A stretch of DNA of 64,000 bases from Trinickia symbiotica (GTDB taxonomy: Bacteria; Pseudomonadota; Gammaproteobacteria; Burkholderiales; Burkholderiaceae), in the NCBI RefSeq assembly GCF_002934455.1, contig NZ_PTIR01000002.1:310001-374000 (forward strand), in the 5' to 3' direction. The number at the start of each line of letters is the position of its first letter. The first letter of the stretch is position 1. Below are positions 32,424-55,547 of this stretch, piece by piece. Both the position numbers and the translations under genes were made by a program. Below the pieces are notes generated by a model. The model did not search any database, had not been told where the DNA came from, and saw only the letters and a program-made list of their open reading frames with translations.

Positions 32424-33107
32424 ATGATCGATAAGACCGTTTCTTCGCCGCAAGATGCCGTGGCCGGCATCTTCGACGGCGCCACCGTGATGATCGGCGG
32501 CTTCGGCACGGCCGGACAGCCGGCCGAGCTCATCGACGCCTTGATCGAACAAGGCGCCAAGGACCTCACGATCGTCAACAACAACGCGGGCAACGGCGAG
32601 CTCGGGCTTGCCGCGTTGCTGAAAGCCCGACGCGTGCGCAAGATCGTCTGCTCTTTTCCGCGTCAGGCGGACTCGCAGGTGTTCGATGCGCTCTACCGCG
32701 CGGGCGAGATCGAGCTCGAGCTCGTGCCGCAGGGCAATCTCGCCGTCCGCATTCAGGCGGCGGGAGCCGGGCTCGGCGCCGTCTTCACGCCGACGGGTTA
32801 CGGCACGCTGCTGGCCGAGGGCAAGGAAACGCGCGAGATCGACGGCAGGCAGTACGTGCTCGAGTACCCGATCAAGGCCGACTTCGCCCTCATCAAGGCC
32901 TATCGCGGCGATCGCTGGGGCAATCTCGTCTATCGCAAGACGGCGCGCAACTTCGGTCCGATCATGGCCATGGCCGCGTCGGTCACGATCGCTCAGGTGA
33001 GCGAGATCGTGCCGCTCGGCTCGCTCGATCCCGAAGCCGTCGTCACACCGGGCATCTTCGTCAAACGCGTCGTGGCCGTGCCCGGTCAGGCCGCACTGGC
33101 CGCGTGA
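32424..33107 (+). CDS. pcaI: 3-oxoadipate CoA-transferase subunit A
   Basis: A 227-residue CoA-transferase alpha subunit that with PcaJ moves CoA from succinyl-CoA to 3-oxoadipate. The glycine-rich block TVMIGGFGTAGQPAELIDAL is near residue 22 and VNNNAGNGELGLAALL follows. PcaJ starts 10 bases after it. First gene of the divergent pca operon, downstream of three PcaR-like sites. Confidence 0.94.
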   Translation: MIDKTVSSPQDAVAGIFDGATVMIGGFGTAGQPAELIDALIEQGAKDLTIVNNNAGNGELGLAALLKARRVRKIVCSFPRQADSQVFDALYRAGEIELELVPQGNLAVRIQAAGAGLGAVFTPTGYGTLLAEGKETREIDGRQYVLEYPIKADFALIKAYRGDRWGNLVYRKTARNFGPIMAMAASVTIAQVSEIVPLGSLDPEAVVTPGIFVKRVVAVPGQAALAA

Positions 33108-33117
33108 GGAGCAACAC

Positions 33118-33774
33118 ATGACTAAATGGACCCGCGATGACATGGCGCGCCGCGTCGCGCAAGACATTCCCGAAGGCGCCTACGTGAATCTCGGCATCGG
33201 TCTGCCGACGAAGGTGGCCAATTACCTGCCGAAAGAGCGCGAGATTTTCCTGCAGAGCGAGAACGGTTTACTCGGCATGGGGCCGGCGCCCGCGCCCGGT
33301 CAGGAGGACCCCGAGCTCATCAACGCCGGCAAGGAGCCCGTTACGCTCATCGAAGGCGGCTGCTTTTTCCATCATGGCGATTCCTTCGCGATGATGCGCG
33401 GCGGCCACCTCGATATCTGCGTGCTCGGCGCGTTTCAGGTTTCGGCGCGCGGCGATCTCGCCAACTGGCACACGGGCGCGCCCGACGCGATTCCCGCTGT
33501 CGGCGGCGCGATGGATCTCGCGATCGGTGCAAAGAAGGTGTTCGTTATGACCGATCACCTGACCAAGCAGGGCGAATGCAAGATCGTCGAGCACTGCACC
33601 TATCCGCTCACGGGCATTGCCTGCGTCGATCGTATCTATACAGACCTTGCCGTGATCGACATCACGGCGCGCGGACTCGAAGTCATCGACATCGTCGTAG
33701 GCCTGAGCTTCGACGAGCTGCAAAAGGTCACCCCTGTCCCGCTGATCCTTGCGACCTCGGCGGCGCACGCCTGA
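33118..33774 (+). CDS. pcaJ: 3-oxoadipate CoA-transferase subunit B
   Basis: A 218-residue beta subunit. NLGIGLPTKVANYLP and the catalytic glutamate in LQSENGLLGMGPAP (about E51) are the family I CoA-transferase motifs; GGAMDLAIGAKKVFVM lies downstream. AGGAG site before ATG 33118. Works as a heterocomplex with PcaI in the cytoplasm. Confidence 0.94.
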   Translation: MTKWTRDDMARRVAQDIPEGAYVNLGIGLPTKVANYLPKEREIFLQSENGLLGMGPAPAPGQEDPELINAGKEPVTLIEGGCFFHHGDSFAMMRGGHLDICVLGAFQVSARGDLANWHTGAPDAIPAVGGAMDLAIGAKKVFVMTDHLTKQGECKIVEHCTYPLTGIACVDRIYTDLAVIDITARGLEVIDIVVGLSFDELQKVTPVPLILATSAAHA

Positions 33775-33790
33775 CGAATAGGAAGACATC

Positions 33791-34993
33791 ATGGAAGAAG
33801 CCTATATCTGCGACGCGATACGGACGCCGTTCGGCCGCTACGGCGGCGCGTTGTCCACCGTGCGCGCCGACGATCTCGCCGCGCTGCCGATCAAAGCGCT
33901 CATTGAGCGCAATCCCAAGGTCGATTGGAGCGCGATCGACGACGTCATCTACGGCTGTGCGAATCAGGCCGGCGAGGACAACCGCAACGTCGCGCGCATG
34001 GCGGCGCTGCTCGCGGGGCTGCCCGTCGACGTGCCGGGCAGCACGGTGAACCGCCTCTGCGGCTCGGGGCTCGATGCGCTCGGCACGGCCGCGCGCGCGA
34101 TCAAGACGGGCGAGACGAGCCTCATGATCGCGGGCGGCGTGGAAAGCATGAGCCGCGCGCCGTTCGTCATGGGCAAAGCCGAGACGGCCTTCAGCCGCTC
34201 GGCCAAGATCGAGGACACGACCATCGGCTGGCGCTTCGTCAACCCTGCGATGAAGGCGATGTACGGCGTCGATTCGATGCCGGAAACCGGCGAGAATGTC
34301 GCGGCCGAATTTGCGATCAGCCGTGAAGACCAGGACAAGTTCGCGTTGCGCAGCCAGATGCGCGCCGCGGCCGCTCAAGAGGCGCGGCGCTTCGACGACG
34401 AACTGATTCCCGCCAGCGTCCCGCAGAAAAAAGGCGAGCCTGTCATCGTCGGCAAGGACGAGCACCCTCGCGCGACTTCGCTCGAAGCGCTCGCGAAACT
34501 GAAGGGCGTCGTGCGTCCCGACGGGACCGTCACGGCCGGCAACTCGTCGGGCGTCAACGATGGCTCTTGCGCCCTCCTGCTCGCCAACGAGCGCGACGCG
34601 GCACGCTATGGGCTGACGCCGCGCGCACGCGTCGTCGCGATGGCGACGGCGGGCATCGCGCCGCGCATCATGGGTTTCGGTCCCGCGCAAGCCGTGCGTA
34701 AGGTGCTCGAACGTGCGAGACTCACACTCGATCAGATGGACGTCATCGAGTTGAACGAAGCGTTCGCCTCGCAGGCGCTCGCCGTCACGCGCAGCCTCGG
34801 CCTTGCAGACGACGACGCGCGCGTCAATCCGAACGGCGGCGCGATCGCGCTAGGCCATCCGCTCGGCGCCTCGGGTGCACGACTCGCCACGACCGCGACC
34901 TACCAGCTCGCGCGCACGGGCGGACGCTATGCACTCTGCACGATGTGCATCGGCGTCGGGCAGGGCATCGCCGTCGTCATCGAGCGCGTCTGA
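33791..34993 (+). CDS. pcaF: 3-oxoadipyl-CoA thiolase
   Basis: A 400-residue thiolase cleaving 3-oxoadipyl-CoA to succinyl-CoA and acetyl-CoA. Catalytic residues are the nucleophilic Cys in VNRLCGSGLDAL (about C90), the His in AIALGHPLGASG and the second Cys in LCTMCIGVGQG. MEEAYICDAIRTPFGRYGG at the N-terminus is typical of PcaF/PaaJ. Follows pcaJ by 16 bases. Confidence 0.95.
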   Translation: MEEAYICDAIRTPFGRYGGALSTVRADDLAALPIKALIERNPKVDWSAIDDVIYGCANQAGEDNRNVARMAALLAGLPVDVPGSTVNRLCGSGLDALGTAARAIKTGETSLMIAGGVESMSRAPFVMGKAETAFSRSAKIEDTTIGWRFVNPAMKAMYGVDSMPETGENVAAEFAISREDQDKFALRSQMRAAAAQEARRFDDELIPASVPQKKGEPVIVGKDEHPRATSLEALAKLKGVVRPDGTVTAGNSSGVNDGSCALLLANERDAARYGLTPRARVVAMATAGIAPRIMGFGPAQAVRKVLERARLTLDQMDVIELNEAFASQALAVTRSLGLADDDARVNPNGGAIALGHPLGASGARLATTATYQLARTGGRYALCTMCIGVGQGIAVVIERV

Positions 34994-35040
34994 TTCGTTC
35001 GATCTCGATCGCTTGCGACAACACGGGAACCGCGACACTC

Positions 35041-35799
35041 ATGACGACTCTTCATCACGAGCTTTCGGGGCCGGCCGGCGCGCCGGTCATCGTCCTCTCC
35101 AATTCGCTCGGCACTACGTTCGAGATGTGGGATCCGCAGGTCGACGCGTTGCGGGCGAAGTTCCGCGTGTTGCGCTACGACACGCGGGGTCATGGACGCT
35201 CCGCCGCGCTGCCCGGTTCGTACACGATCGATGAGCTGGGCCGCGACGTCATCGCCCTGCTCGATTCGCTCGACATCGAGCGTGCGCATTTCGTCGGGAT
35301 TTCGATGGGCGGGCTCACGGGCCAATGGCTCGGCGTTCACGCCGGAGCGCGGATCGACAAGCTCGTCGTTTCGAACACGGCCGCGCGCATCGGCACCACG
35401 GAAGGGTGGCGCGCCCGGGCGGACCTCGTTCGCAAGCAAGGAATCGCTGACGTGGCCGACGGTGCGGCCGGGCGCTGGTTTACGCCGCGCTTCATCGCAG
35501 CGCAACCCGCGACGGTCGAAACGTTGACGGCTCGGCTCCGCTCGCTTTCGCCCGAAGGATACGCAGCCTGTTGCGATGCGCTCGGCGATGCCGACCTGCG
35601 CGAAGACATCGCGCGCATTTCATGTCCCACGCTCGTTATCGCCGGTGCGCACGATCCGGTGACGACCGTCGATGATGCCCGGTTCATCGCTGCGCGCGTG
35701 CGCGGCGCTCGTCTCGCCGAACTTGATGCATCGCATCTGTCGAATATCGAAGCGGCGGAGGCGTTCACCGAGGCCGTCTTGCGCTTTTTCGGTGACTGA
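35041..35799 (+). CDS. pcaD: 3-oxoadipate enol-lactonase
   Basis: A 252-residue alpha/beta hydrolase opening 3-oxoadipate enol-lactone to 3-oxoadipate. LSNSLGTTFEMWDPQV (oxyanion region), RYDTRGHGRS, the nucleophile elbow HFVGISMGGLTGQW, the Asp in IAGAHDPVT and the His in LDASHLSNIE complete the triad. The longer frame upstream is a shadow; ATG 35041 begins MTTLHHELSG, as usual. It closes the pca block and receives muconolactone-derived enol-lactone from CatBC. Confidence 0.93.
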   Translation: MTTLHHELSGPAGAPVIVLSNSLGTTFEMWDPQVDALRAKFRVLRYDTRGHGRSAALPGSYTIDELGRDVIALLDSLDIERAHFVGISMGGLTGQWLGVHAGARIDKLVVSNTAARIGTTEGWRARADLVRKQGIADVADGAAGRWFTPRFIAAQPATVETLTARLRSLSPEGYAACCDALGDADLREDIARISCPTLVIAGAHDPVTTVDDARFIAARVRGARLAELDASHLSNIEAAEAFTEAVLRFFGD

Positions 35800-39724: not shown

Positions 39725-40819
39725 CTATCGAGAGTCAAATCGACGTATCGCTCTTGCGATCTTTTCAACGTCGCCATCCGAAAGATGGTGATGGCAGGGG
39801 ATTGTCAAAATCTCCTGCGCTAGGCGCTCCGTATTGGGGAGTGAGATAAGTGGCTGACTGCAACGCCATGCTTCTTGCCGATGAATAGGTATTGGGTAGT
39901 GGATTGTTGCTTCAATATCGTGCTTGGCTAGGTGCTGTTGTAGCTTATCTCGCTTTCGTGACTTAACGACGTAGTGGTAGTAGGAACTTCCCTGTCTGCC
40001 TCGTCCGAGATCCGTTCCTGTAGCAGTCCCGGCGAACGCGTCGTCATAGAACGCCGCTATTTCTCTGCGACGGCGCAGCCACTGATCCAAGTGTTGCGTC
40101 TTAATATTGATCGCGGCCGCTTGTAACGAGTCAAGGCGGGAGTTGATTCCGAACAAGACTGCTTCGTCACGACTCTGTAATCCATGGTTGCGCGCCTTCC
40201 TCGCATACTCGGCGATCGCCGGGTTGGTCGTGACGAGCGCGCCGCCATCCCCCATGCCGCCGAGTGTTTTCAGTGGGTGTAGTGAGAAGGCGGCCGCGTC
40301 ACTGGATGTACCGACCTGGTGACCTTTGATCGTGGTCCCGATAGCTTGAGCACAGTCTTCGATGACGGCTACCCCGCGCGGGCCACAAATGTCCAAAATC
40401 TCGTTAATGTCTACGGGTCGCCCGCGTAGGTGAACAGGTATGACGGCTCTTGACCGCGCGGTCAGAAGCGGCCCAATTGTGTCAGCATTAATGAGTTCGT
40501 CGTCCCCAACGTCCGCAAGTACAGGTTGAGCGCCAACAGCCACTATCGCCCCTACAGTGGCGACGAATGTATTCGAACAGGTTATGACTTCATGGCCCGC
40601 CCCAATTCCGAGCGCGCGCAGCGCGAGGAGCAAAGCGTCCGTGGCTGAGTTCATCGATACGACATAGCCCCCCCCGCAACGCTGCGACATCCATGCTTCG
40701 AATCGCGAGACCTCTTCTCCCAGTACAAAGTCACCGGCAGCGAGAATATGGCGCCACCGCTCGCAGATGGACTCAGACAGATCACGCGCCTGTTCCTGGA
40801 TGTTATTGCACCTGATCAT
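39725..40819 (-). CDS. DegT/DnrJ/EryC1-type sugar aminotransferase
   Basis: A 364-residue PLP enzyme of the nucleotide-sugar aminotransferase family. Motifs: SMNSATDALLLALRALG (residues 55-71), the PLP-pyridine Asp in VIEDCAQAIG (D155), the Schiff-base lysine in SLHPLKTLGGMGDGG (K184, where relatives usually have KNLG), and the C-terminal ATIHYPIPIHRQ segment. It should transfer an amino group from glutamate to a keto-sugar. The ATG overlaps the MFS stop by four bases; it is the last gene of the island operon. Confidence 0.9.
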   Translation of the reverse strand: MIRCNNIQEQARDLSESICERWRHILAAGDFVLGEEVSRFEAWMSQRCGGGYVVSMNSATDALLLALRALGIGAGHEVITCSNTFVATVGAIVAVGAQPVLADVGDDELINADTIGPLLTARSRAVIPVHLRGRPVDINEILDICGPRGVAVIEDCAQAIGTTIKGHQVGTSSDAAAFSLHPLKTLGGMGDGGALVTTNPAIAEYARKARNHGLQSRDEAVLFGINSRLDSLQAAAINIKTQHLDQWLRRRREIAAFYDDAFAGTATGTDLGRGRQGSSYYHYVVKSRKRDKLQQHLAKHDIEATIHYPIPIHRQEAWRCSQPLISLPNTERLAQEILTIPCHHHLSDGDVEKIARAIRRFDSR

Positions 40820-42030
40820 TGGCCCCTTCCTATGGCTATCAGCCCAATCGTGGCGGTTGCGACTGCACTGACTGCACCCGCTGCAGCCAGCGTGTGGGAA
40901 TAACCTAGGGTCTCCCCGATGAAGCCGCCACCGAGATAAACGAATGGATGCGCGCCGCTGGTAACGAAAGTGTCCACCGCGACCACTTTGCCGACATCTC
41001 TTTCAGGGGAAAGCATTTGCATGGCCGTTGCCCAGCCAGTAAGCCATGATGCTTCGACCACTCCGACGAGCGCAGCTCCCAAGACAACCATCCATCCGAG
41101 ATCGCCGAGCGCTAGTAAAGACATTGCGCCGCCGAGAAATAAGCCACACGTCAGTGCCAGTGGTTTCAGATGCCGATGACCGGCAACGAGCACCGTGATT
41201 ACAGATCCGAAACATGCTCCCAGCCCCGACGCGGCCAGGCAAACGCCCCACATCACGTCGCCAAAGCGGTCACTCACAGCGTATGGGGCCACGACCAGGA
41301 AGACTGGAAAGCAGAGGACGTTGACTACTAATGTGGCGACGAAACCTAACAGCAACTGCGAATTGCCGGCGATTACCATTATGCCGTTCATTGCGTCGCA
41401 CAACTTCAAATCGCCCTCGAAATCCAACTTTCCTTCCTCGGGTAAGAATGCAGTGAAAGCCGCCGCGCCGAAGAAAGTGACACCGTCGATCACGATGCCC
41501 AACACTGGATTCCAAATAATAATCGTGACACCCACCGTAGCCGGAAAGATGACGGCCACAAGGTTGTCAAGAAAGTTCATCGCCCCGTTCCCTGCGACCA
41601 AAGCCCGCCTGGGTAGCAGGTTTATGAGCAAAACTTGGGTACATGGGCGAGAAGCACCAATTCCAATACCAAATATCAGATAAACCAGGACCAAACTCCA
41701 TGGCGGTGCGTCGGACACGATAAGCGCAGCAGCAACGACTTGTGCCACCCCCCTCGCAGTGTCTGTCGCAATGAGAACCTGTCTCGGTGACCGGCGGTCC
41801 GCCAGGACCCCTCCCGCCGCGGCACCGATGACCGTGCCGAGCCCAACTGCGGCCATGACAAGCCCGAAGACCTGCCCGCTTAAGCGAGCATGAAGCATAG
41901 CAACCGGAAGGGCTGCCAAACAAACTGCATCCCCGGCCATTGACAGCCCTTGGCCAATCAGCAATTTCCGGAATGATGGAAAGCGCAACGCATCGCGATA
42001 AGGCGACATACGCTCGACGAGTGATGTCAT
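40816..42030 (-). CDS. MFS exporter, DHA3/EntS-like
   Basis: A 404-residue 12-helix transporter. FRKLLIGQGLSMAGDAVCLAA is the typical opening of DHA3-type drug, macrolide and siderophore exporters, and GGVLADRRSPRQVLIATD is motif A after helix 2. The start shares a base with the GH65 stop (taATG), so the two are translated together. Position inside the operon suggests export of the pathway product or self-protection. Confidence 0.87.
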   Translation of the reverse strand: MTSLVERMSPYRDALRFPSFRKLLIGQGLSMAGDAVCLAALPVAMLHARLSGQVFGLVMAAVGLGTVIGAAAGGVLADRRSPRQVLIATDTARGVAQVVAAALIVSDAPPWSLVLVYLIFGIGIGASRPCTQVLLINLLPRRALVAGNGAMNFLDNLVAVIFPATVGVTIIIWNPVLGIVIDGVTFFGAAAFTAFLPEEGKLDFEGDLKLCDAMNGIMVIAGNSQLLLGFVATLVVNVLCFPVFLVVAPYAVSDRFGDVMWGVCLAASGLGACFGSVITVLVAGHRHLKPLALTCGLFLGGAMSLLALGDLGWMVVLGAALVGVVEASWLTGWATAMQMLSPERDVGKVVAVDTFVTSGAHPFVYLGGGFIGETLGYSHTLAAAGAVSAVATATIGLIAIGRGQ

Positions 42031-44288
42031 TAGAATTCTCCGCAACTGTGGAGGCGCCCGTCTGAATGGCGCATAACGGAGAGTTGGCTCCCATCTGAAT
42101 CAATGTCGATCGCGCCGTCTGCAGGAACCGTAATCCGCAATCGTCGTCCCCGAAAGCATATGGTGAACCCGTACGAGTTCCAATTTGGTGGTAACCGCGG
42201 CCGGAATGTAAGCCTGTTACCTTCGACACGAAGCCCCGCCAAACCTTCGGCAAGCCCCTGCCACGCCCCGGCGTACGCAGACAGATGCAAACCGTTGCTG
42301 TAGTCCGTGACCGGAATAAAGTCCAAGTCATAGCGACTTGCACGCGTTATGAAGTAGGCGCAGTCGCTCGTCTCTCCGATATCAGCAGCAACCATCGCAT
42401 GAGGGCCGTAGCTAAGGGATGACTCATGTACGGTCCGAGGCTCATAGAACTCGAATGCAGTGCGCTTGATGTCATCTGAAAAGTCACCCGGAAACAACGA
42501 CATAAGAAGAACGATATCAGCCTGCTTTATCAACTTTGAATTGAAGTTCTCCAACCGATCAGAAGAACTACGTTCAATGTCATCCAAAAATTGTGGCCCA
42601 CCTATTTTTTCCACCCTAAGTTTAGTTTCCGGAAGTGCCGCGTATCCTTCAAATTCCTCTGGAATCAATACACCATCGACGCGCATCCACGGCAGATACA
42701 CACTACCGATTATCACGCGCCAATAATCAACCTCCTGTACTGAGGCCTCATGAATCAATCCCCGATCAACCAACGAAACTGCAAATTGGATAGCCCATCT
42801 AAGCATATAATTCGTGTAGAAACTATTACTTACGTGATAGTGATACTCGTCCGGCCCCATCACGTAGTCAACAACATATGCATTCTTCTTGCATGACCAT
42901 TTAAAAGCAGATGCTGCGAATCTTGCACACTCCAGCACAACTTCGCCGCCGCAGGCATTCATATATGCATTATCACCCGTTATCAGCCAGTATCTATACA
43001 AGGCGTAGCAGACATCCGCGGAAATGTGCAGCACCTCGTCGACGCTCCACTCTCGCCTCACCTCCGCACTTGGGTAGCTTAGAACATAATGAGGCCCATT
43101 TTCTGCTCCGTGGTCGTTTGACGCCTCCGGGAAACGAGCACCGCGAAATCCGGTGTTTTTTGCAAACTCTATTGCTTTCTCGATACCATGATAGCGATAT
43201 TCTATGAATGCGCGAGCCACGGATGGCTCTACCCACATCCAAAATATGCATTTATGAAGCTCATTATCAAAGAATGTTGCTCCGGAATGATAGGTGCCAG
43301 TCAAACCCCGCGCCGGTGACATAAATCCGTGGGTGCGATTTTGCGAGCCCACGCCATGCTGCATTAGCTGAAACACAGCGTATTTGATCCCCAACTCGAC
43401 CCCTTCACCTTTTGCGTCAATGTAAACGCCATAATCACCCCATAGTTGCTTCCATCGAGCCCGGTGCTCGCTCTCCGAGTCCGCGAAGCTAAACGGGGCG
43501 CCTCGCGCCGGCGATCCGGCGGATACCGAGCATACTAGCCAATGCGCGGAGAATTGAAGACAGTCTGCGGCACAAAAGTCGAAAGTCGTCGATATGGCGC
43601 AGGTATCCCCGGAGCGTTTCCACATAGCGATGTTGGCACCGAGCGGCGATTGTTGAACTTCCACTTCATATCGCAGACGACGCTCTCCAGCGCGGACAAT
43701 AACTCGCAAAAAGTCATCGCTCCAGTCACATTGCTCTATATGATAGTGGCGAGCGGTCAACCACGGAAATGTGCCGAGGTATTCATTGACTGCCGAGGCG
43801 TCGATGCCGTAGTCCAGCCGCAATCGACGTGGCTCAACCCCACTTGCGCTTCTGCGCCGCAACTGTACGAGCGATGACGCTTGGGGCTTGTCGGGGACAT
43901 CTATAAACTGTCGGACCATCAACTCGAAAGCTTCGTCGCCAACCAGCAGACACTCAGTGCTAGTAGCGATCGCGCTTTCGAGGCACAACGCAAACGTTGT
44001 GGTTGCCCCATCGAAGCGGCGCGCAGGCTCGCCCGTTTCGACATCATAGATCCTCAGAATTCGCGGCGCCGGTAGTGACACGATCTCACGCGACACACCA
44101 ACGCCAGACGCATACACGCCCGCCGCAAGCAGTTGCGTTCGCTCGGTTCTTTCACATGCGTCGGGAACGTATGGACGGACTCCAATGAGCGCATTGGCTA
44201 ACGTTGCCACGCATGACACAAACGAAGACGATTTTGGATTCAGCTCGCTCACACGCTCGTCTTGCCTTCCATAAGAAATAGTCAGCAT
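42030..44288 (-). CDS. Glycoside hydrolase family 65 phosphorylase, divergent
   Basis: A 752-residue GH65-type protein: N-terminal beta-sandwich (about 1-270), helical (alpha/alpha)6 catalytic barrel (290-650) and a short C-terminal beta-sheet. The general acid is probably E481 in YVMGPDEYHYHVSNSFYTNY, the KQAD segment is at 588-591, and the phosphate-binding loop is VHESSLSYG (H621). The usual GH-x-FWD-T/S-E block is replaced by SGATFFDNELHK at 335-346. GH65 enzymes reversibly phosphorolyse alpha-glucosides such as trehalose or maltose. Here, with no glycosyltransferase nearby, it may run in the synthetic direction. Confidence 0.85.
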   Translation of the reverse strand: MLTISYGRQDERVSELNPKSSSFVSCVATLANALIGVRPYVPDACERTERTQLLAAGVYASGVGVSREIVSLPAPRILRIYDVETGEPARRFDGATTTFALCLESAIATSTECLLVGDEAFELMVRQFIDVPDKPQASSLVQLRRRSASGVEPRRLRLDYGIDASAVNEYLGTFPWLTARHYHIEQCDWSDDFLRVIVRAGERRLRYEVEVQQSPLGANIAMWKRSGDTCAISTTFDFCAADCLQFSAHWLVCSVSAGSPARGAPFSFADSESEHRARWKQLWGDYGVYIDAKGEGVELGIKYAVFQLMQHGVGSQNRTHGFMSPARGLTGTYHSGATFFDNELHKCIFWMWVEPSVARAFIEYRYHGIEKAIEFAKNTGFRGARFPEASNDHGAENGPHYVLSYPSAEVRREWSVDEVLHISADVCYALYRYWLITGDNAYMNACGGEVVLECARFAASAFKWSCKKNAYVVDYVMGPDEYHYHVSNSFYTNYMLRWAIQFAVSLVDRGLIHEASVQEVDYWRVIIGSVYLPWMRVDGVLIPEEFEGYAALPETKLRVEKIGGPQFLDDIERSSSDRLENFNSKLIKQADIVLLMSLFPGDFSDDIKRTAFEFYEPRTVHESSLSYGPHAMVAADIGETSDCAYFITRASRYDLDFIPVTDYSNGLHLSAYAGAWQGLAEGLAGLRVEGNRLTFRPRLPPNWNSYGFTICFRGRRLRITVPADGAIDIDSDGSQLSVMRHSDGRLHSCGEF

Positions 44289-45328
44289 GAGGGGCCCGAG
44301 CGCAAAGCGTACGACCAGTCGCCAACGCGAATGTTTAGCAAATTATGGTAACGAGGGTCCGTCAGGACATCCGCACTATCATTGAACCATCCTGACTGCC
44401 ATCGATCGCATATCTCGAGAATGGCATCTCTGATGGCATAGACAAAATTGAAACCAAGTTCTTCCCGCATCAGCCGTGAGTCAAGTCTGTAGGAGCGGAC
44501 GTCGTCCGTAGCAGTTGTTGAGATTGGCACATTGACATTAAAATAGCTGTCAACAACGTCTTTGACCTGCGTCGCGATCTCAGACACAGTGTGATTGGTG
44601 TAACCGACATTTATCGCGCGCCCGGAGAGTGTGTCGAGAGAGTCTCGTTGCGCCAGCACCGTGTATAGCCGACAAAGATCGCCGATGTGTACGCTCGGCC
44701 GGAACTGATCTCCGCCGAATACCGTGATTTGGCCGCGGGCTAGCGCACTGGCTGTCAGCATATTTACGGTGAGGTCAAAACGCTGTCTTGGCGACCAGCC
44801 GCAAACTGTTGCCGCTCTCACCGCGACTGTTTCGAACGACGAATCTGTTAGGTCGAAAACTATCTTCTCGCCTTCTGCCTTATATCGGCTGTAGTCGGTA
44901 ACTGGCATGCACGGTTGCGTCTCATCGACCACGGGTTCGGCGTTAATCCCGTAAACGCTGGCCGATGACGCATAGATGAAGCGTTGACAGCCCGAACGCT
45001 TGGCACTCCTCGCTAGGTGCGGAAGACAATCGATATTTATGGATCGACTCACCTCCGGATCAAGGTTAAAGCTAGGGTCGTTCGCAACCGCGGCGAGATG
45101 TATCACTGTGTCAATCCCACGTAACGAATCCTCGACGATCGGCTTGTCACGGATGTCCCCTCTGACAACCTCCAGACGACGATTCTCAAGAAGTCGATCA
45201 AGACCATTCGGAAAAAATTGAGCGTCCAGCACGCGGACCCCGCATCCTGCAGCCAGCAGTTTGGGTACGAGCTGGGCCCCTATATACCCTGATCCGCCAG
45301 TTACTAGAATTGTCGAGTGCTCAGTCAT
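44282..45328 (-). CDS. NAD-dependent sugar epimerase/dehydratase (extended SDR)
   Basis: A 348-residue extended SDR. NAD-binding GGSGYIG is at residues 11-17, the active-site motif YSRYK at 146-150 (Tyr146, Lys150), with SSASVYG at 121-127 supplying the serine, and RPSVHIGDL marks the substrate side. It probably oxidises, epimerises or dehydrates a nucleotide- or phospho-sugar, giving a ketone for the aminotransferases. The upstream longer frame is rejected; ATG 45328 has an AAAGGA site. It overlaps GH65 by 7 bases. Confidence 0.88.
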   Translation of the reverse strand: MTEHSTILVTGGSGYIGAQLVPKLLAAGCGVRVLDAQFFPNGLDRLLENRRLEVVRGDIRDKPIVEDSLRGIDTVIHLAAVANDPSFNLDPEVSRSINIDCLPHLARSAKRSGCQRFIYASSASVYGINAEPVVDETQPCMPVTDYSRYKAEGEKIVFDLTDSSFETVAVRAATVCGWSPRQRFDLTVNMLTASALARGQITVFGGDQFRPSVHIGDLCRLYTVLAQRDSLDTLSGRAINVGYTNHTVSEIATQVKDVVDSYFNVNVPISTTATDDVRSYRLDSRLMREELGFNFVYAIRDAILEICDRWQSGWFNDSADVLTDPRYHNLLNIRVGDWSYALRSGPSC

Positions 45329-45338
45329 TTCGTATCCT

Positions 45339-45995
45339 TTATAAGCCGCGAATCGGCAAAGTGATGTCATCAAGTGACGAAACAATCCCTGCGGTAGGAT
45401 GTGTAGCTGTCGATTGCACTGCGTTGCGCCGAATCTGATAGGCGCGGATCCCGAGACTACATGCGACGTCGACCGCATGAGGGGCATCATCGATAAGCAC
45501 AACCGCTTCGTAAGGGTGCTCGCCCACAAGAGACAAGATAAATTCCTTTCGCGTCTGATCGCGCCGCTGCTGCAGTACGGCTCGCCCGGCACAGTGAATC
45601 CCGGATCTCCGCAACGCGGCTTCGAAAATGCGAGGTGCGTTTTCAGATGCGGTGTAGAACTTGACCTGTTGCTGCGACCATTCGACCCGTGCGAGCAGTC
45701 GCAATGCATCATCAAAGATGCGGGCATTTGCAGAGAGCCGCATGAACTCCGATTGTTTGATCTCCGCCAACAAATCGGCGTCGTGCGAGCAACGTGCGCC
45801 GATGCGCACACTGCATTGCTTCAGCTCAATCAGGCGGGATGCCCCGTCCTGGCGAGTCCGCCCTGCCATGTGCATAAAGTATTCTTCGTGCGTAAGATCC
45901 TCTGTCCAGACTCGGCGCGCAGCGCTACGCCAAGCTTCGTAGTGCTGCGTATCGATGAGCGTTCCGTCGAGGTCTAGCAGTAATAGTGTTTGCAT
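45339..45995 (-). CDS. HAD-superfamily phosphatase/phosphomutase
   Basis: A 218-residue HAD protein. Motif I DLDGTL (nucleophile D8, acid D10), motif II at YTASE, motif III lysine near QTRKEFI and motif IV VLIDDAPHAVDVA. The helical cap between motifs I and II (HEEYFMHMAGRTRQDGASRL) is a C1-type cap, as in sugar-phosphate phosphatases and beta-phosphoglucomutases. Beta-PGM often accompanies GH65 phosphorylases, but the DGT rather than DGV/I motif favours a phosphatase. Gap of 10 bases to the SDR gene; a GTG start at 46004 is possible. Confidence 0.85.
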   Translation of the reverse strand: MQTLLLLDLDGTLIDTQHYEAWRSAARRVWTEDLTHEEYFMHMAGRTRQDGASRLIELKQCSVRIGARCSHDADLLAEIKQSEFMRLSANARIFDDALRLLARVEWSQQQVKFYTASENAPRIFEAALRRSGIHCAGRAVLQQRRDQTRKEFILSLVGEHPYEAVVLIDDAPHAVDVACSLGIRAYQIRRNAVQSTATHPTAGIVSSLDDITLPIRGL

Positions 45996-46020
45996 TTCGC
46001 ACACTCACTCGTCGTGCACC

Positions 46021-46494
46021 TTAAGACATGATTACCTGGGCAATCCGTGACGTTGAATCCATCACCAACCCATCGGTGCAAGTCACTCGCCCGCCGTTGC
46101 TGTGCACGAGCAATCGCTCCGCCTTTACTCTCGGGTCCGTGCTAGAGGAATAGTCAGCCCCCTTGAAGAACACATCTGGTCGAAGAGCGGAGATCACCGG
46201 TTCAGCGGTCGCGGAGTGGTTGACTATGGCGTGACTACAGTATCGAATCGACGCGATAAATTCCGCTCGAACGCGATCTGAAAATATCGGTCTACCGTTC
46301 CCTTTCTTGACGAATTCGTCGGCGGTAATCGAAACGAAGAGTCGATCCACCAGCGAGCTAGCCTGCCGCAGGTGATGAATATGCCCTAAATGGACAATGT
46401 CGAAGCAACCATGGCAAAGTCCAACCACGAGCCCCTCGGTTCGATAACTGGTTGCAAGAGCCTGTAGCTCTGCTATTTCGCACAAGATTGTCAT
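46021..46494 (-). CDS. HxGH nucleotidyltransferase (HldE-C / TagD-like)
   Basis: A 157-residue cytidylyl/adenylyltransferase. GLCHGCFDIVHLGHIHHLRQA carries the HxGH motif (HLGH at 35-38), KGADY at 111-115 matches the KGGDY of heptose-1-phosphate adenylyltransferases, and DSTSRI near the end is the third nucleotide contact. It should activate a sugar phosphate (or polyol/amino-alcohol phosphate) as an ADP- or CDP-derivative. It starts one base after the acetyltransferase stop. Confidence 0.87.
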   Translation of the reverse strand: MTILCEIAELQALATSYRTEGLVVGLCHGCFDIVHLGHIHHLRQASSLVDRLFVSITADEFVKKGNGRPIFSDRVRAEFIASIRYCSHAIVNHSATAEPVISALRPDVFFKGADYSSSTDPRVKAERLLVHSNGGRVTCTDGLVMDSTSRIAQVIMS

Positions 46495-46495
46495 A

Positions 46496-47002
46496 TCAGC
46501 GACCCTTCGAGTAAAGAAATTTGGCCATTATGTTGAGATGCTCAAATTCGCCCCAATAATCCGGCACTTGCCCAACTATCTGAAACCCATTCTGGAGATG
46601 AAAGAGATACGCTGCTCGCTCGCTATCGATGTTACCGATGTCTAGACACAAACAACTCTTTTCAAGCTGCAACGCGAATTGCTCGATCGTTGCATAGAGT
46701 AGCGAAGCAATCTTCCCTCGGCGATAGCTACGGTCAACGATTAACCAGTCGACCCATAGCGCGTGCTTTGATGGTATCGGACCAGGACCACATCCTATAG
46801 TGCCGACCACGGCACCGCCATAAGTCGCGACAAGCCTCATGCACTCGCGATTCGGTTTCCCTAGCTCATAAGTGAACTGCGCACGTGCTGACTCCGTCAG
46901 ATCGTCTCGCGATGCAATTTGAGAAACCAAGTCAAGCATCGCTGCGAGATCGACAGCATCAACACGGCGAATAGCAACGGGCTGCTCACTCCCCTTCACC
47001 AT
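46496..47002 (-). CDS. GNAT-family N-acetyltransferase
   Basis: A 168-residue acetyltransferase. The acetyl-CoA pyrophosphate loop is VDRSYRRGKIASLLY, followed by AAYLFHLQNGFQIVG at the C-terminal part. It likely acetylates an amine made by one of the two aminotransferases of the operon. The start at 47002 overlaps the preceding gene by 17 bases, so translation is coupled; the longer frame upstream has no support. Confidence 0.82.
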   Translation of the reverse strand: MVKGSEQPVAIRRVDAVDLAAMLDLVSQIASRDDLTESARAQFTYELGKPNRECMRLVATYGGAVVGTIGCGPGPIPSKHALWVDWLIVDRSYRRGKIASLLYATIEQFALQLEKSCLCLDIGNIDSERAAYLFHLQNGFQIVGQVPDYWGEFEHLNIMAKFLYSKGR

Positions 47003-48308
47003 GATAATCAAGTCTCCCAAGTGCAGAATCGAGACGCTCGCATACAGTCGCAATCATTTCCGGTGTATGCGCTGCAGATAGCGTTACCGGCTCCGGGCAA
47101 TAAGCGAGTGGCATTAGGAAGCCGTATAATCCATACTCCATTGATAGCAAACGAAATAATCTAGTGGCGAACTTCGCAGGGTACGTCTCTTCGATGTCTT
47201 TCATCGACCTGGGGCGCTGCGAGGTGCCGATATGGACGCCAACGCGGCCACCATAACCGTCTATGTAGCAAGGGATGTTGTGTCTGGCGAATATGTCGCG
47301 CAGGCCTTTTTTAAGTTGATCCTCCAGGCTTGCGATGTATCGATAAACGGCACCATCTTCGAGATGGTCGATAACCGATACGGCGGCGGACACTGACAGG
47401 TAGCGCCCCGTATTTGTTCCACTGACCTGTAAAGGCCCACGCGGCGCGATTACGTCCATGAATTCGGCTTTCCCCGCGATGCCGGCTACCGGCATTCCGC
47501 AGCCGAAGGCCTTGCCATATGTTGCGATGTCTGGAACGACGCCGTACTCCTTCTGAGCACCGCCGATATTCGAGCGAAATCCAGTCAGAATCTCGTCAAA
47601 AATCAACAGCGCACCGTGCTCTGTTGTCAACGTCCGTAGAAGCTCGAGAAATCCTTCTTCCGGCCTTATACATCCAATATTCAGCGCGACGGGCTCCAGA
47701 ATGACCCCCGCGATGTCGCCGGAATACAACTCAAAGGCCCTGCGTGCGGCAATTGCATCGTTCCAAGGTAAGGGTATGGTCAACAGGCCGAGTTCATCGG
47801 GAACTCCCACTGCACCCGCCACACGCTCGAGCTCGCCACTTGTCCGAAGCGCGCCACTTCGTGGAGAAGAGTCAACATTCCACGTAAGCGTATCGCCTAA
47901 CCCATGGAAATGTCCTTCGAACTTAATGATCAATCGCCGTCCGGTTACAGCGCGCGCTATGCGGGTGGCATACATGGTGGCTTCCAAGCCGGAATTGGCA
48001 AGGCGGAGCTTTTCGGCACACGGGACCACAGCACAGAAGCGCTCGCTGAGGGCTTGATGTTTCTCGGTTTCATATTGTTGAAGAAAGCCGACCGATAGCG
48101 CCTGAATGATAGATTCGCTAATGATTGGGCTATCGTGACCGAGGAAACACGAACCCCATCCCATAATATAGTCATCTCGCCACTCTCCGGAGGCCACCTG
48201 TATTCGTGCGCCGGACGCATTGCGAATCTGCGTAGATCCTACCGCCGTCAAATGATTCCAGCCAGCCAGCACGTTTCCTACCCTCGTTTCAACAATATTT
48301 GCAGTCAT
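46986..48308 (-). CDS. Class III aminotransferase, glutamate-1-semialdehyde aminomutase-like
   Basis: A 440-residue fold-type I PLP enzyme. LRLANSGLEATMYATRIARA (phosphate region), KFEGHFHGLGD, the PLP Asp in LLIFDEILTGFR (D238) and the Schiff-base lysine in TYGKAFGCGMPVAG (K266) are typical of GSA aminomutases. It cannot serve haem synthesis here given its context; it probably aminates, or moves an amine within, a hydroxylated aldehyde or ketone. First gene of the eight-gene island operon. Confidence 0.88.
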   Translation of the reverse strand: MTANIVETRVGNVLAGWNHLTAVGSTQIRNASGARIQVASGEWRDDYIMGWGSCFLGHDSPIISESIIQALSVGFLQQYETEKHQALSERFCAVVPCAEKLRLANSGLEATMYATRIARAVTGRRLIIKFEGHFHGLGDTLTWNVDSSPRSGALRTSGELERVAGAVGVPDELGLLTIPLPWNDAIAARRAFELYSGDIAGVILEPVALNIGCIRPEEGFLELLRTLTTEHGALLIFDEILTGFRSNIGGAQKEYGVVPDIATYGKAFGCGMPVAGIAGKAEFMDVIAPRGPLQVSGTNTGRYLSVSAAVSVIDHLEDGAVYRYIASLEDQLKKGLRDIFARHNIPCYIDGYGGRVGVHIGTSQRPRSMKDIEETYPAKFATRLFRLLSMEYGLYGFLMPLAYCPEPVTLSAAHTPEMIATVCERLDSALGRLDYHGEGE

Positions 48309-48683: not shown

Positions 48684-49565
48684 ATGATGAACCTTACGCA
48701 CTGGCGATTATTGATCGCAATAACCGAGACTGGAAATATCTCAAAAGCAGCAGAGCGCGTCGGCATCACGCAGTCGGGTGCGAGCCAAGCAATTTCGAGT
48801 CTGGAGGAGACCCTTGGCGTTCAGCTCCTGGTGCGAACGCGCGGTCGTGTGTTGCTGACGTCCGCTGGAGAGAGAGTGATTCGTCACGCGAAAACGATGG
48901 TCGCGGAATTCGAGGCAATAAAGAGGCTCGGGAAGGAGGCGGGGCCTGCGAACATGAACCGAGTCCAGCTCGCAAGTTCACCGACGGTCTGCACAATCCT
49001 GGTCCCCCCACTGTTGGGCGCCCTAAAGAGAACACATCCGGATGTTCGCGTTGTGCTTCTTGAAGGCAACGAAAACGATATCGCGAGCTGGCTCAAGGAC
49101 GACAAAGTCGATGCTGGGATCGTAGTGAATCCCCCGCACGACAGCGGTGCCGTCATTCTCTGCAGAAGTAGCTGGGTCGCCGCCCTTCCGCAATCGCACC
49201 CCGTAGCATTGTCCGACTTGACCGGGGGGATCGACATTTGCGCATTGATCAGAGAGCCATTCGTTGTCGCGACGAGTTGTTGCGCCATCAACCGCGAAAA
49301 TGCGCTGCACTCATCGACCTTGTCACCGGAGGATGTACGAGCAACAGTTCGCGATTGGCACACGGCACTCGCGTTGGCGGAGAATGGACTCGGTGTGACA
49401 CTTGTACCGGCGATCGCAGTTCCGAACTGGATCAGTAACCTTCGTATCGTTCCTCTCTCATCGCCTATTCCCTGCGAATTCGGGATCGTCCCGTCTGCGA
49501 TGGGGTCCCGGTCGTGCGCGGTTCACGCGCTTCTCGATCACGTACGCGCAACGAAAGTCGAGTAA
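48684..49565 (+). CDS. LysR-family regulator of the island operon
   Basis: A 293-residue LTTR. N-terminal helix-turn-helix at about residues 5-65 (ETGNISKAAERVGITQSGAS), effector domain from about residue 93. Two adjacent ATGs make the start uncertain by one codon. It is divergent from the eight-gene operon and shares its AT-rich composition, so it most likely controls it in response to a pathway compound. Confidence 0.88.
   Translation: MMNLTHWRLLIAITETGNISKAAERVGITQSGASQAISSLEETLGVQLLVRTRGRVLLTSAGERVIRHAKTMVAEFEAIKRLGKEAGPANMNRVQLASSPTVCTILVPPLLGALKRTHPDVRVVLLEGNENDIASWLKDDKVDAGIVVNPPHDSGAVILCRSSWVAALPQSHPVALSDLTGGIDICALIREPFVVATSCCAINRENALHSSTLSPEDVRATVRDWHTALALAENGLGVTLVPAIAVPNWISNLRIVPLSSPIPCEFGIVPSAMGSRSCAVHALLDHVRATKVE

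Positions 49566-49690: not shown

Positions 49691-49694
<4 letters not shown>
49674..49694. terminator. Stem-loop at the convergent LysR/benD end
   Basis: Perfect arms CTGAGAT (49674-49680) and ATCTCAG (49688-49694) around a 7-base loop, overlapping the benD stop. Possible terminator at the island's right border. Confidence 0.4.
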
Positions 49695-51531
<1,837 letters not shown>

Positions 51532-52023
51532 TCAGACGTGATAGATGTCGATCAATTGATTGATGTAGTCGTTCTTCAGGACTACATACTTGTTGCGAAC
51601 GAGCGGTCGTTCGCCCGTAAAGTCGATGACGTAGCGCGACATGCCGAAATGGCTGAACGTCGTCTTGTAGCGATGACTCAGCGTATGCCAGTTGAAACGC
51701 ACGGTGCAGACGCCGCCGGCCTCGTTCTCGAGCTCGATGTTGCTGAGGTTGTGCGACGTGCGTGTATCGGGCGTCGTCGCGCTCGAGCGTTCCGTCTTGA
51801 TGCGGAAGACACGGTCTTCGAGGCCCTGACGATTTGGGTAATAGATGAGCGAAACCTCGCGCTGTGGATCCGCGATGAGATTGTCGTCATCGTCCCATGA
51901 AGGCATCCAGAAGACGGCGTCGCGGTGATAACACTCGAGCCACTCGTCCCAGAGCTTGTCGTCGAGAAGACGGCATTCGCGATGGAGAAACGCCTGAATG
52001 TCGTTCATCGTCACGGTGCTCAT
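51532..52023 (-). CDS. benB: Benzoate 1,2-dioxygenase small subunit
   Basis: A 163-residue ring-hydroxylating dioxygenase beta subunit, structural partner of BenA in the (alpha-beta)3 oxygenase. [20 protein letters not shown] and [16 protein letters not shown] at the N-terminus and [13 protein letters not shown] later are typical. The ATG overlaps the benA stop in ATGA, so the longer frame upstream is not used. Confidence 0.93.
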
Positions 52024-53390
52024 GCTTGACTCCCCTGCGCCGCCACGGCCTTCTTCATCGTCTCGACCCAATAACGGTGCTGAATCGTATAAAGCCCCTC
52101 GTCTTCGGTTTTCACGCCGCTCAAGAGCGGCTTCAATCCGATCTTGCGCGCCGCTTCGTCGGGCCCTTCGAGCCAATGTGTCGAGCCGCGACACATGTCG
52201 TTCCATTCGACGGCGATACCGGCGTAGCCTTGCTGGCACGAGCGGAACTCCTCCAAATCGTCGGGCGTTGCCATTCCGCTGACGTTGAAGAAGTCCTCGT
52301 ACTGCCGAATACGATGGGCACGCTCTGCGTCAGGCTCGCCTTTCGGGGCAATGCAATAAATCGTGACCTCGGTCTTGTCGACGGAAAGCGGCCGCAGCAC
52401 GCGGATCTGCGAGCTGAATTGGTCCATCAGGTAGACGTTCGGATAGAGACAGAGATTGCGCGAGTTGCGAATCATCCAGTCCGCCTTCTCGGCGCCGCAA
52501 CGCCCGGCCAGTTCCTCGCGCCGGCCGTAGTTGGGCCTGTCCTCGGGATTGGCCCAGCGTGACCATAAGAGCATGTGGCCACGGTCGAACGCATAGAAGC
52601 CTCCGCCCTGGCGCCCCCAGCTCCCGGCGTCCATCGCGCGGACGTCGTCGATGCGGCCGGCCTCCTGCTTGCGGCGATTCGTCGTGGCCGCGTAATTCCA
52701 ATGCACCGACGAGACGTGATAGCCGTCGGCACCGTTCTCGGCGGTCAGCTTCCAATTGCCTTCATACGTATAGGTCGACGAGCCGCGCAGCACTTCGAGG
52801 CCATGTTCGGATTGATCGACGATCATATCGATGATGTGCGCAGCCTCGCCAAGGTGCTCGACAAGAGGCGGCACGTCGGCATTCAGGCTGCCGAACAGAA
52901 ATCCGCGGTAGTTCTCGAAACGGGGCACGCGCTTGAGGTCATGCGAGCCCTCGCGGTTGAAGCATTCGGGGTAGCCGGCCTCTTCGGGATCCTTCACCTT
53001 CAGCAGCTTGCCGCTGTTGTTGAACGTCCAGCCGTGGAACGGACATGTGTAGGTCGCCTTGTTGCCATGCTTGCGCCGGCAAAGCATCGCGCCGCGATGC
53101 GTGCAGGCATTGATGAACGCGCCGAGCTCGCCCTGTCGGTTGCGCGCAATGAAGATCGGTTGCCGGCCGATGTGCGTCGAGTAATAGTCGTTCTTCTCGG
53201 CGATCTGGCTTTCATGGGCAAGATAGATCCAGCTGCCTTCGAACAGAGTTCGCATCTCGAGCTCGAAGAGCGCCGGATCCGTGAAAGCGCTTCGATGCAA
53301 CCTGTAATCGCCGCGCTCGCGGTCTTCGACGAGATAATCGTCGATGCTTCGGGCAAGCCGGGGGCTGCGATCCGGATGGATCGGGATCAT
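52020..53390 (-). CDS. benA: Benzoate 1,2-dioxygenase large subunit
   Basis: A 456-residue catalytic alpha subunit. The Rieske centre is formed by [12 protein letters not shown] and YTCPFHGW (about residues 90-115); the mononuclear iron ligands lie in [16 protein letters not shown] (about 218-233) with a later Asp. It adds O2 to benzoate to give the cis-diol. First gene of benABCD, 93 bases downstream of catA on the same strand. Confidence 0.95.
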
Positions 53391-53483
53391 GAGTGATATC
53401 TCCGGGTGAGTCTCAAACGGACGGCGGCCGGTGCGCCGTCCTGGGGCAATCAGTCGCGCCGCGTGTGCGCGCGCGCCGACCTC

Positions 53484-54404
53484 CTACACCGCCGCCCGCT
53501 TGCGCTCGACTTCGACGGCGGGCGCCGCCGCGTTGTCGACATTCAGGTGGAAGTCGAAATCGATCGAGGCGAACGGCTTGTCGACGCCGTGCCGCGCAAG
53601 CTGCTCGGCGGACGAAATGCGCTCGATCGGCGGCACGAGCCCTTCGCGGCTGGCAAATGCGAAGTCGTCCCAAAGGTAGGCGTCACCGTCGATGTTGATT
53701 TGCGTTGTCAGCTTGCGATGCCCTGGCGCCGAGACGAAGAAGTGGATATGCGCGGGCCGGCGGCCATGGCGGCCGAGCTTGTCTAGCAGGCGCTGCGTCG
53801 TGCCGCCGGGAGGACAGGCGTAGCCGACGGGAACGATGCTGCGAAACTGGTATCGCCCATCCGCATCGGTCACAATCGTGCGGCGCAGATTGAAGTCCGG
53901 TTGCGTCTTGTCGAAGAACGAATAGTTCCCGAGCAGATTGGCATGCCAGACTTCGACTCGCGCGCCGGCCAGCGGCTTGCCGTTCGCGCCGAACACAGTG
54001 CCTTGCATGAATAGAACATCGCCCTCGTCGGCCTGCGAACCGTCGTCGAGCCGCGCGAAGCCCACGCTTTCCGGCGCGCCCGCGACGTAGAGCGGGCCTT
54101 CGATCGTGCGAGGCGTGCCGCCTCTGATCCCAGCCTTCGCCTCGGCTTCATCCATGCGGATGTCGAGAAAGCGTTCGAGGCCGAGACCAGCCGCGAGCAG
54201 CCCGAGCTCTTGCTTCGCGCCCGCCTCCGAGAAGTATTCGATGCCCTTCCATACTTCGGTCGGACTCAAGTCGAGATCCTCGATGGCCTTGAAAAGGTCG
54301 GTCGCAAGGCGCAGCACCACCTGCTGAACGCGCGGGTCGGCTTCGCCCTTGGCCGTATCGACGATGAACCCTTTCACGAGGGCCTCGATTTCTGCATGCT
54401 TCAT
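53484..54404 (-). CDS. catA: Catechol 1,2-dioxygenase
   Basis: A 306-residue intradiol dioxygenase cleaving catechol to cis,cis-muconate. The N-terminal helical dimer domain is followed by the ferric-iron ligands: Tyr in GNYSFFDKTQPDFNLR, Tyr in IVPVGYACPPGG, and two His in RRPAHIHFFV. Start at 54404 has an AGGAG site. It heads the minus-strand block catA-benABCD and is divergent from catR. Confidence 0.95.
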   Translation of the reverse strand: MKHAEIEALVKGFIVDTAKGEADPRVQQVVLRLATDLFKAIEDLDLSPTEVWKGIEYFSEAGAKQELGLLAAGLGLERFLDIRMDEAEAKAGIRGGTPRTIEGPLYVAGAPESVGFARLDDGSQADEGDVLFMQGTVFGANGKPLAGARVEVWHANLLGNYSFFDKTQPDFNLRRTIVTDADGRYQFRSIVPVGYACPPGGTTQRLLDKLGRHGRRPAHIHFFVSAPGHRKLTTQINIDGDAYLWDDFAFASREGLVPPIERISSAEQLARHGVDKPFASIDFDFHLNVDNAAAPAVEVERKRAAV

Positions 54405-54511
54405 TGTCTGCTCCTGATCTGTCTCCGTTATTGGCCGTCCCCACGACGGCAAGCCGCCTGCGCCATCCACTGCCCCTTCGATGCTCGAAAGGTATGAGCC
54501 GATAGGCGGCA

Positions 54512-54528
54512 ATCCGTAACTGAAGGAT
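54512..54528. promoter_or_regulatory. Possible LTTR dyad between catA and catR
   Basis: ATCC (54512-54515) and GGAT (54525-54528) enclose 9 bases in the 190-base divergent region. Short and therefore weak evidence; a CatR site is expected here. Confidence 0.3.
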
Positions 54529-54594
54529 AATTAGCGCCAATCGGCGGCGTCCAACACCGTTTTAGTATCCATTCGATATCGCAGAGGTATGCTC

Positions 54595-55515: not shown

Positions 55516-55547
55516 CCAACGTCCATCCTCGCCGCATCGGGACGACT

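Follow-up and report, generated by a model that had tools for sequence, protein, structure and literature searches.

The sugar-binding site of GH65 enzymes has been described for the hydrolase FjGH65A, in which Trp343, Asp344, Lys538 and Gln539 hold the non-reducing glucose; this quartet is kept in two superposed phosphorylases and is "completely conserved" in the aligned eukaryotic hydrolases (PMC8626586). Here we describe a GH65 gene in a 64,000-nucleotide stretch of the Trinickia symbiotica contig NZ_PTIR01000002.1 (positions 310,001 to 374,000, hereafter the window) whose product is altered in both sugar subsites and retains the residues of phosphorolysis. The interval 42030-44288 is filled exactly by an intact open reading frame (ORF) for a protein of 752 aa. 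It lies on the minus strand, a point left unstated in an earlier annotation made from the letters alone (the sequence-only reading). We consider it rather probable that the enzyme works in the synthetic direction, making the alpha-glycosidic link in an amino-disaccharide or aminoglycoside that is then exported.

We aligned the window GH65 with five relatives from the same gene cluster and with 30 other GH65 proteins from fetched genomes and plasmids (the background). Duplicate loci (L001, L003, L004, L005, L007, L008, L024, L025, L031 and L038) were removed before counting, and the 30 background rows take in two without phosphorylase residues (L035 and L039). Two PF03632 loci fell outside the set at its E limit of 1e-8: L036, where no alignment was obtained with the longest ORF used, and L037, which on later inspection also has the Trp discussed below (MWD). 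One residue accounts for at least 80% of the background at 81 positions, 54 of which are kept in all six cluster members. At subsite -1, the Trp present in 30/30 background rows is Phe340 in all six members (W340F), and around it Y334H and P348I/V are equally uniform (6/6 members, against Tyr and Pro in 30/30 background rows). Two further replacements shared by the six members are W458A/S (Trp in 29/30 background rows) and W/M388E (27 Trp and 3 Met), position 388 corresponding by sequence alignment to the subsite +1 Trp391 of kojibiose phosphorylase. The equivalents of the FjGH65A quartet are thus Phe340, Asp341, Lys588 and Gln589; three of the four are retained, and the Trp is missing from every cluster member. 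From the seven-residue spacing before Asp we infer that position 334 is equivalent to Tyr337 of GH15 glucoamylase, where Tyr337 and Asp344 are spaced in the same way (PMC8626586).

The sequence-only reading had singled out the block at residues 335-346, SGATFFDNELHK, as altered and as contacting the non-reducing glucose. The block does lie in subsite -1, its Trp being one of the four conserved contacts, and the alteration is real; the observation was largely right, and the alteration is stronger than was stated once the cluster relatives are considered. Its details need adjustment. The change of GH to SG or GA is ruled out as the main alteration because GA also occurs in maltose phosphorylase (the solved 1h54 spells GGATYWDTE). 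Ala at position 337 is not unusual (2/30 background rows), 2-O-glucosylglycerol phosphorylase (4ktp/4ktr) spelling QGAAFWDQE. Asn342 is confined to the window enzyme, the other five members reading FFDTE. Neither a sequencing error nor drift in a single sequence accounts for the loop: the key changes are common to all six relatives, which share 52-65% mutual identity, so the alteration is clade-wide. The loss of the donor-site Trp agrees with the modified donor that had been proposed, but subsite +1 is changed as strongly, and an aminated acceptor is therefore at least as well indicated as a modified donor.

The catalytic and phosphate-binding residues, in contrast to these changes, are preserved. 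The other motifs quoted in the sequence-only reading stand where it placed them (GPDEYH with Glu481, KQAD at 588-591 and HESSLS at 621-626), and in a 22-row alignment used to assess invariance (A1), no variation is seen at E481, K588, Q589, H621, S623, S626 and H668 and almost none at D341 and S624. The phosphate site consists of a Lys, a His and two Ser, which we assigned through alignment and spacing to PMC8626586; S623, S624 and H668 are retained, and the Lys position is Arg327 in the window enzyme as in several background rows. Because the residues of phosphorolysis are retained, the enzyme is of the phosphorylase type, with sugar-1-phosphate or phosphate as its expected partner. A GH65 hydrolase is ruled out by the retained Ser pair, which FjGH65A has lost (PMC8626586). 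The six-position specificity motif of PMC8537180 (CsKP 64, 392, 394, 402, 416 and 585), mapped by hand, reads E-A-N-P-W-E, with position 585 loosely aligned. It matches none of the motifs written out in that text (maltose, kojibiose, trehalose, trehalose 6-phosphate and alpha-1,3-oligoglucan, as distinct from the figures with 22 subgroups), the nearest being EEAPxx of kojibiose phosphorylase.

Membership of GH65 is borne out by both domains of the family, the catalytic PF03632 (268.6 bits against a Pfam cut-off of 27) and the C-terminal PF03633 (48.5 against 22), and by an (alpha/alpha)6-barrel fold. A structural model built from 18 sequences (mean predicted local distance difference test score, pLDDT, 78.8; predicted template-modelling score, pTM, 0.86) has maltose phosphorylase 1h54_B as its best structural match (Z 44.1, root-mean-square deviation 3.0, 671 residues), with kojibiose phosphorylase 3wiq_A at Z 43.8 and a deviation of 3.0 over 684 residues. 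The first Foldseek rows agree, GH65 structures leading the matches, and structural-match rows 1-13 are all entries that the sequence search had also matched. The cut-offs of NF053734 (kojibiose hydrolase; 104.3 against 800 bits) and of the GH65 model PRK13807 (292.5 against 838 bits) are missed.

In an IQ-TREE phylogeny of the 36 rows, the six cluster proteins lie on one side of a branch with support of 100/100, whose length of 2.6 changes per column exceeds that of every other inner branch (the next measures 2.26), and they are at most 26% identical to any background row. The window protein would belong to a new, deep GH65 clade with a putative synthetic direction. A second GH65 in the same genome (L002, G000:C9:233407-234843) is of the ordinary FWD type, falls in a different part of the tree and is 29% identical to the window enzyme over 274-736. 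Cluster GH65 genes were detected in 4/11 genomes of the genus (E<=1e-60), 5/398 of the family (E<=1e-100) and 1/399 of the order, the last being the window's own; among 369 genomes of the class (E<=1e-40), its own copy aside, no GH65 match exceeded 34% identity. The class III aminotransferase of the cluster is co-inherited with it, occurring, out of 396 family genomes, in exactly those five (E<=1e-90) and, among plasmids (E<=1e-70), only in the three records with this GH65 clade. Megablast of the eight-gene unit against E. coli genomes gave no match, scans of genome contigs and viral contigs, which may omit records near the window's genome, gave no relatives, and a phage search returned 22 records, all below 60% identity and none covering 80%. 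The distribution of the unit is patchy.

The unit comprises, in order, genes for a class III aminotransferase, a GNAT acyltransferase, an HldE-type nucleotidyltransferase, a HAD protein, a short-chain dehydrogenase/reductase (SDR), the GH65 enzyme, an MFS transporter and a DegT aminotransferase (Table 1). This order is kept in six lineages, represented by the window, genomes G001 (L009), G009 (L010), G008 (L011) and G088 (L012) and Pseudomonas aeruginosa NZ_CP147627 (L006), with 49-77% identity; both annotated P. aeruginosa records (L006 and L007) display it, in NZ_CP131792 (L007) amid integrative-element genes. Junctions are tight in the window, where the SDR and GH65 genes overlap by 7 bases and the MFS and DegT genes by 4, and G+C content ranges from 0.50 to 0.59 within the unit and from 0.58 to 0.69 in the surrounding DNA. 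Comparison of flanking ORFs in 15 locus pairs, mostly over about 5 kb per side, gave a single weak match (31% identity). The flanks thus share almost nothing, and the LysR gene and other outside genes are therefore not counted in the unit; with its order kept and its flanks unshared, the unit looks complete in itself. The GH65 enzyme alone among the eight proteins belongs to a glycosidic-bond family and no glycosyltransferase is found among them (Pfam), which upholds the earlier statement that the operon lacks such an enzyme; the neighbours are of amino-sugar type.

Table 1. Features of the GH65 enzyme and of the eight-gene unit in the window
Feature	Coordinates	Strand	Basis
GH65 phosphorylase-type enzyme	42030..44288	minus	752 aa, ATG at 44288; PF03632 1.1e-79, PF03633 7.2e-13
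Altered subsite -1 block, residues 335-346 (SGATFFDNELHK)	43251..43286	minus	Alignment; Phe340 for Trp in 30/30 background
Glu388, replaces subsite +1 Trp/Met	43125..43127	minus	Alignment, 6/6 members
Glu481, general acid (GPDEYH)	42846..42848	minus	Invariant in 22-row alignment A1
Class III aminotransferase, glutamate-1-semialdehyde (GSA) aminomutase type	46986..48308	minus	PF00202 7.4e-45; top solved matches GSA aminomutases
GNAT N-acyltransferase	46496..47002	minus	PF00583 4e-9, alignment; ORF opens 47053, conserved Met at 47002
HldE/RfaE domain II-type nucleotidyltransferase	46021..46494	minus	TIGR02199 2.1e-27, 95.7 bits, below cut-off 181.5
HAD hydrolase, beta-phosphoglucomutase-like	45339..46004	minus	TIGR02009 9.6e-11, below cut-off; solved matches
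Extended SDR, epimerase/dehydrogenase type	44282..45328	minus	PF01370 4.5e-37; YxxxK by alignment; ATG at 45328
MFS exporter-type transporter	40816..42030	minus	PF07690 1.9e-21; TIGR00900 9.2e-34, below cut-off; ORF opens 42045, ATG 42030
DegT/DnrJ/EryC1 sugar aminotransferase, HPLK Lys	39725..40819	minus	PF01041 3.9e-96; alignment

Several features surround these loci. The P. aeruginosa copies come from blood isolates (NZ_CP147627.1 and NZ_CP131792.1) and lie among integrative-element and type IV pilus genes; the 22-kb circle of these records, which was typed as a non-mobilizable plasmid, appears to be a fragment of the integrative element, and a 177-bp ORF labelled as an OXA-type resistance gene seems too short for one. 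At L010 5307-6621 (G009) the class III aminotransferase is split over two frames, through a broken copy or an assembly error, and the other seven unit genes match over almost their full length. In the window the unit is flanked by aromatic-degradation genes (32424-35799 and 49691-56803), with pcaI- and pcaF-type genes on the left (NCBIfam over cut-off) next to ORFs identified by eye as pcaJ and pcaD, and benD, benC, benA, catA and a muconate cycloisomerase on the right (NCBIfam over cut-off). The divergent LysR-type gene at 48684-49565 (plus strand), for which CatM and BenM are among many LysR models below cut-off, was set aside as part of the system since it has no relative in the flanks of the other loci; it could be part of the benzoate gene set. 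When the neighbouring patatin gene was used to look for an empty site, patatin alone proved common to the regions of five relatives, and neither RNA elements nor a tRNA insertion site were found in the window. A role in anti-phage defence was ruled out, the eight proteins giving no PADLOC match.

What the neighbours act upon is suggested by their closest matches. The solved structures matched by the HAD protein at E<=0.001 number 16, all of which bear the name beta-phosphoglucomutase (the best at E 2.6e-6), and a beta-phosphoglucomutase gene adjoins GH65 in four of six annotated plasmid loci and lies one gene away in the other two (loci picked from 255 matched records; two further fetched loci carry no annotation). 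The closest solved chains of the SDR are 6wjb and then 6vo6, and what we take to be the 4,6-dehydratase signature is not seen in its sequence. The DegT protein, whose HPLK Lys is presumably catalytic, best matches 7b0d, 2oga, 3uwc and 3frk among solved structures, and its closest relatives include QdtB and WbpE. On an Azospirillum oryzae plasmid (L060), a PfkB/HldE-type protein (about 41% in the nucleotidyltransferase part) is grouped with the nearest non-cluster plasmid SDR (43%), two DegT proteins (38-40%) and a SIS isomerase, with glycosyltransferases further along; this grouping suggests that the nucleotidyltransferase, SDR and DegT enzymes form a series on one activated sugar. The module itself (L060 9762-19292: SIS isomerase, PfkB/HldE-type kinase-nucleotidyltransferase, three SDR/epimerases, a thiamine pyrophosphate enzyme pair and two DegT) has the appearance of an amino-heptose pathway of an unusual kind.

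Given the amino-sugar neighbours, the lack of a glycosyltransferase and the unshared flanks, a reverse, synthetic role for the GH65 enzyme is the most economical reading. The same role had been put forward in the sequence-only reading and is plausible and partly supported, and the modified donor proposed there is a candidate. We order the steps from the protein families. The beta-phosphoglucomutase-like HAD would furnish a beta-hexose-1-phosphate, to be activated by the nucleotidyltransferase (HldE acts on beta-heptose-1-phosphate); the SDR would oxidise the sugar ring, most likely at C4, and DegT would aminate the oxidised sugar. The class III enzyme would aminate an open-chain aldehyde to yield an amino-alditol acceptor, and the GNAT protein would acylate an amine. 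The GH65 enzyme would then couple the two halves, so forming the glycoside within an eight-gene pathway that is complete in itself, and the MFS protein would export the product. Its donor would be a hexosyl beta-1-phosphate, probably of an aminated and possibly N-acylated hexose, and its acceptor would bear an amine; inversion would give an alpha-glycoside, and phosphate would leave via the intact phosphate pocket. The carboxylate that Glu388 brings to subsite +1 fits an amine-bearing acceptor, and a donor with a modified ring would be in keeping with the missing Trp of the donor site. A pathway running on beta-sugar-1-phosphates, closing with reverse GH65 phosphorolysis and then export, is economical as a reading of these genes, in which the enzyme probably links two sugars into an antibiotic-like molecule and does not digest them.

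Several points weigh against this synthetic reading. Ranked by bits, the solved structure that best matches the nucleotidyltransferase is an ethanolamine-phosphate cytidylyltransferase, and the enzyme may therefore act on something other than a sugar phosphate. The resemblance of the HAD protein to beta-phosphoglucomutase is weak, with family cut-offs missed (TIGR02009, 42.2 against 153.35; TIGR01990, 23.5 against 189.4). Three of the DegT relatives, 2oga (which we take to be DesV), QdtB and WbpE, are presumably C3 aminotransferases, at odds with a C4-amino product. Model confidence is low in the altered loop (pLDDT 62 for residues 321-330, 59 for 331-340 and 89 for 341-350), and no geometric claim is therefore based on the modelled loop. 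Three of the four donor-site residues are retained, which leaves room for a plain glucose donor, and in the openly licensed literature, as far as available to us, no statement was found on which atom or hydroxyl the subsite -1 Trp touches. Beta-glucose-1-phosphate is the product of every GH65 phosphorylase in Table 1 of PMC8537180, and the use of an amino-sugar donor would be a novelty. The alternatives that chiefly need excluding are GH65 catabolism of the ordinary kind and a donor of plain glucose.

There is a real, if minor, chance that the donor is plain beta-glucose-1-phosphate and that the acceptor alone is modified, an amino-sugar or amino-alditol held by Glu388, with Phe340 tolerated. 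Asp341, Lys588 and Gln589 would supply three of the four subsite -1 contacts, and the new carboxylate at subsite +1 is present in 6/6 members; against this, the lost Trp is unchanged in all other GH65 rows and conserved in the comparison of PMC8626586, and Tyr334 and Pro348 around it are changed as well. Alternatively the enzyme could feed the pathway, phosphorolysing a cellular alpha-glucoside to beta-glucose-1-phosphate for the nucleotidyltransferase, with the bond formed by another enzyme or not at all. This agrees with the retained phosphate site, with the product that GH65 phosphorylases release (PMC8537180) and with an HldE-type nucleotidyltransferase as the kind of enzyme able to take it. 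We nevertheless think it unlikely: the remodelling of both sugar subsites, as seen against the background, would be strange in an enzyme for ordinary glucose substrates, the HAD protein would be redundant, and a glycosyltransferase is missing from the unit.

An amino-heptose donor seems to us quite improbable. The nucleotidyltransferase, SDR and DegT enzymes would then act on a heptose phosphate taken from lipopolysaccharide metabolism, and a pocket enlarged by the Trp-to-Phe and Pro-to-Ile/Val changes would take the C7 sugar, in keeping with the HldE/SIS module of Azospirillum in which the nearest non-cluster plasmid SDR sits, and with the second-best solved match of the window SDR, 6vo6, which we take to be the Campylobacter GDP-heptose 4-dehydrogenase Cj1427. 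The cluster, however, has neither the heptose kinase nor the SIS isomerase, the HAD protein resembles beta-phosphoglucomutase, and a host HldE (assumed; no search for it was made) would make the nucleotidyltransferase redundant. Very improbable is direct use of a nucleotide sugar, after the manner of the Leishmania GH130 mannogen enzymes, glycosyltransferases with a phosphorylase fold: the pathway appears to yield a nucleoside diphosphate beta-sugar, the right anomer for inverting alpha-transfer, and has no dedicated return step to the 1-phosphate among its eight genes, but the phosphate-binding residues are retained, no nucleotide site is seen in the GH65 sequence, and the nucleotidyltransferase reaction is reversible.

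Compared with characterized GH65 enzymes, the synthetic candidate described here stands closest in sequence, among solved structures, to the kojibiose phosphorylase of Caldicellulosiruptor (3wiq/3wir; 2.6e-70). The two share the fold (Z 43.8), the acid, the Lys-Gln pair and the phosphate Ser pair; they are 24% identical in the structural alignment, FWDTE of the kojibiose phosphorylase becomes FFD[TN]E in the cluster clade, and its subsite +1 Trp391-Glu392 becomes Glu-Ala in the window enzyme. The maltose phosphorylase of Levilactobacillus brevis (1h54) has the GAT-aromatic-aromatic-D loop spelling of the window enzyme, and Ala337 is therefore not novel; unlike the cluster clade, 1h54 retains the Trp (YWDTE), and in maltose-phosphorylase-like rows the subsite +1 position that is Glu in the clade is occupied by Met. 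The 2-O-alpha-glucosylglycerol phosphorylase of Bacillus selenitireducens (4ktp/4ktr) uses an acyclic polyol, glycerol, as acceptor (PMC3899277), a precedent for an alditol acceptor, and differs in its unmodified beta-glucose-1-phosphate donor and retained FWD. Catabolic operons also pair GH65 with a beta-phosphoglucomutase-like HAD; the window unit adds two aminotransferases, a GNAT protein, a nucleotidyltransferase and an exporter-type MFS protein. Within openly licensed literature, the titles and abstract openings seen describe no GH65 in biosynthetic clusters, the available texts on sorbistin gave no genes for its biosynthesis, nothing was found on GH65 jointly with P. aeruginosa islands and aminotransferases, and searches for a trehalosamine gene cluster and for septacidin/ADP-heptose gave unrelated work only.

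Among natural products, the nearest likeness is with the sorbistins, aminoglycosides of Pseudomonas sorbicinii that carry a 4-acylamino-4-deoxy-alpha-glucosyl unit on 1,4-diamino-1,4-dideoxyglucitol. A Pseudomonas product with broad antibacterial activity, sorbistin appears in PMC12175458 with the formula C16H33N3O9 for sorbistin A2, a dereplication guess that by our arithmetic fits a butyryl member. We tentatively suggest, as a distinct possibility, that a sorbistin-type aminoglycoside is produced by the horizontally moving cluster, found in the window's family and in a P. aeruginosa integrative element, with no classical glycosyltransferase taking part, a GH65 enzyme with a rebuilt donor site forming the bond in a pathway that runs on beta-anomeric sugar-1-phosphates. 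If this is true, a specialised metabolite owes its bond-forming step to a family known for degrading sugars, a biosynthetic cluster may be complete without a glycosyltransferase, and the unit provides both a candidate gene set for a broad-spectrum aminoglycoside class described in 1976 and an engineerable enzyme making amino-sugar glycosides from sugar phosphates. The sorbistin structure calls for the kinds of enzymes that the unit holds, namely for C4 amination, terminal amination, N-acylation and an alpha-glucosidic bond, and a sorbistin-type product, which we link to the cluster by inference, would use all eight genes.

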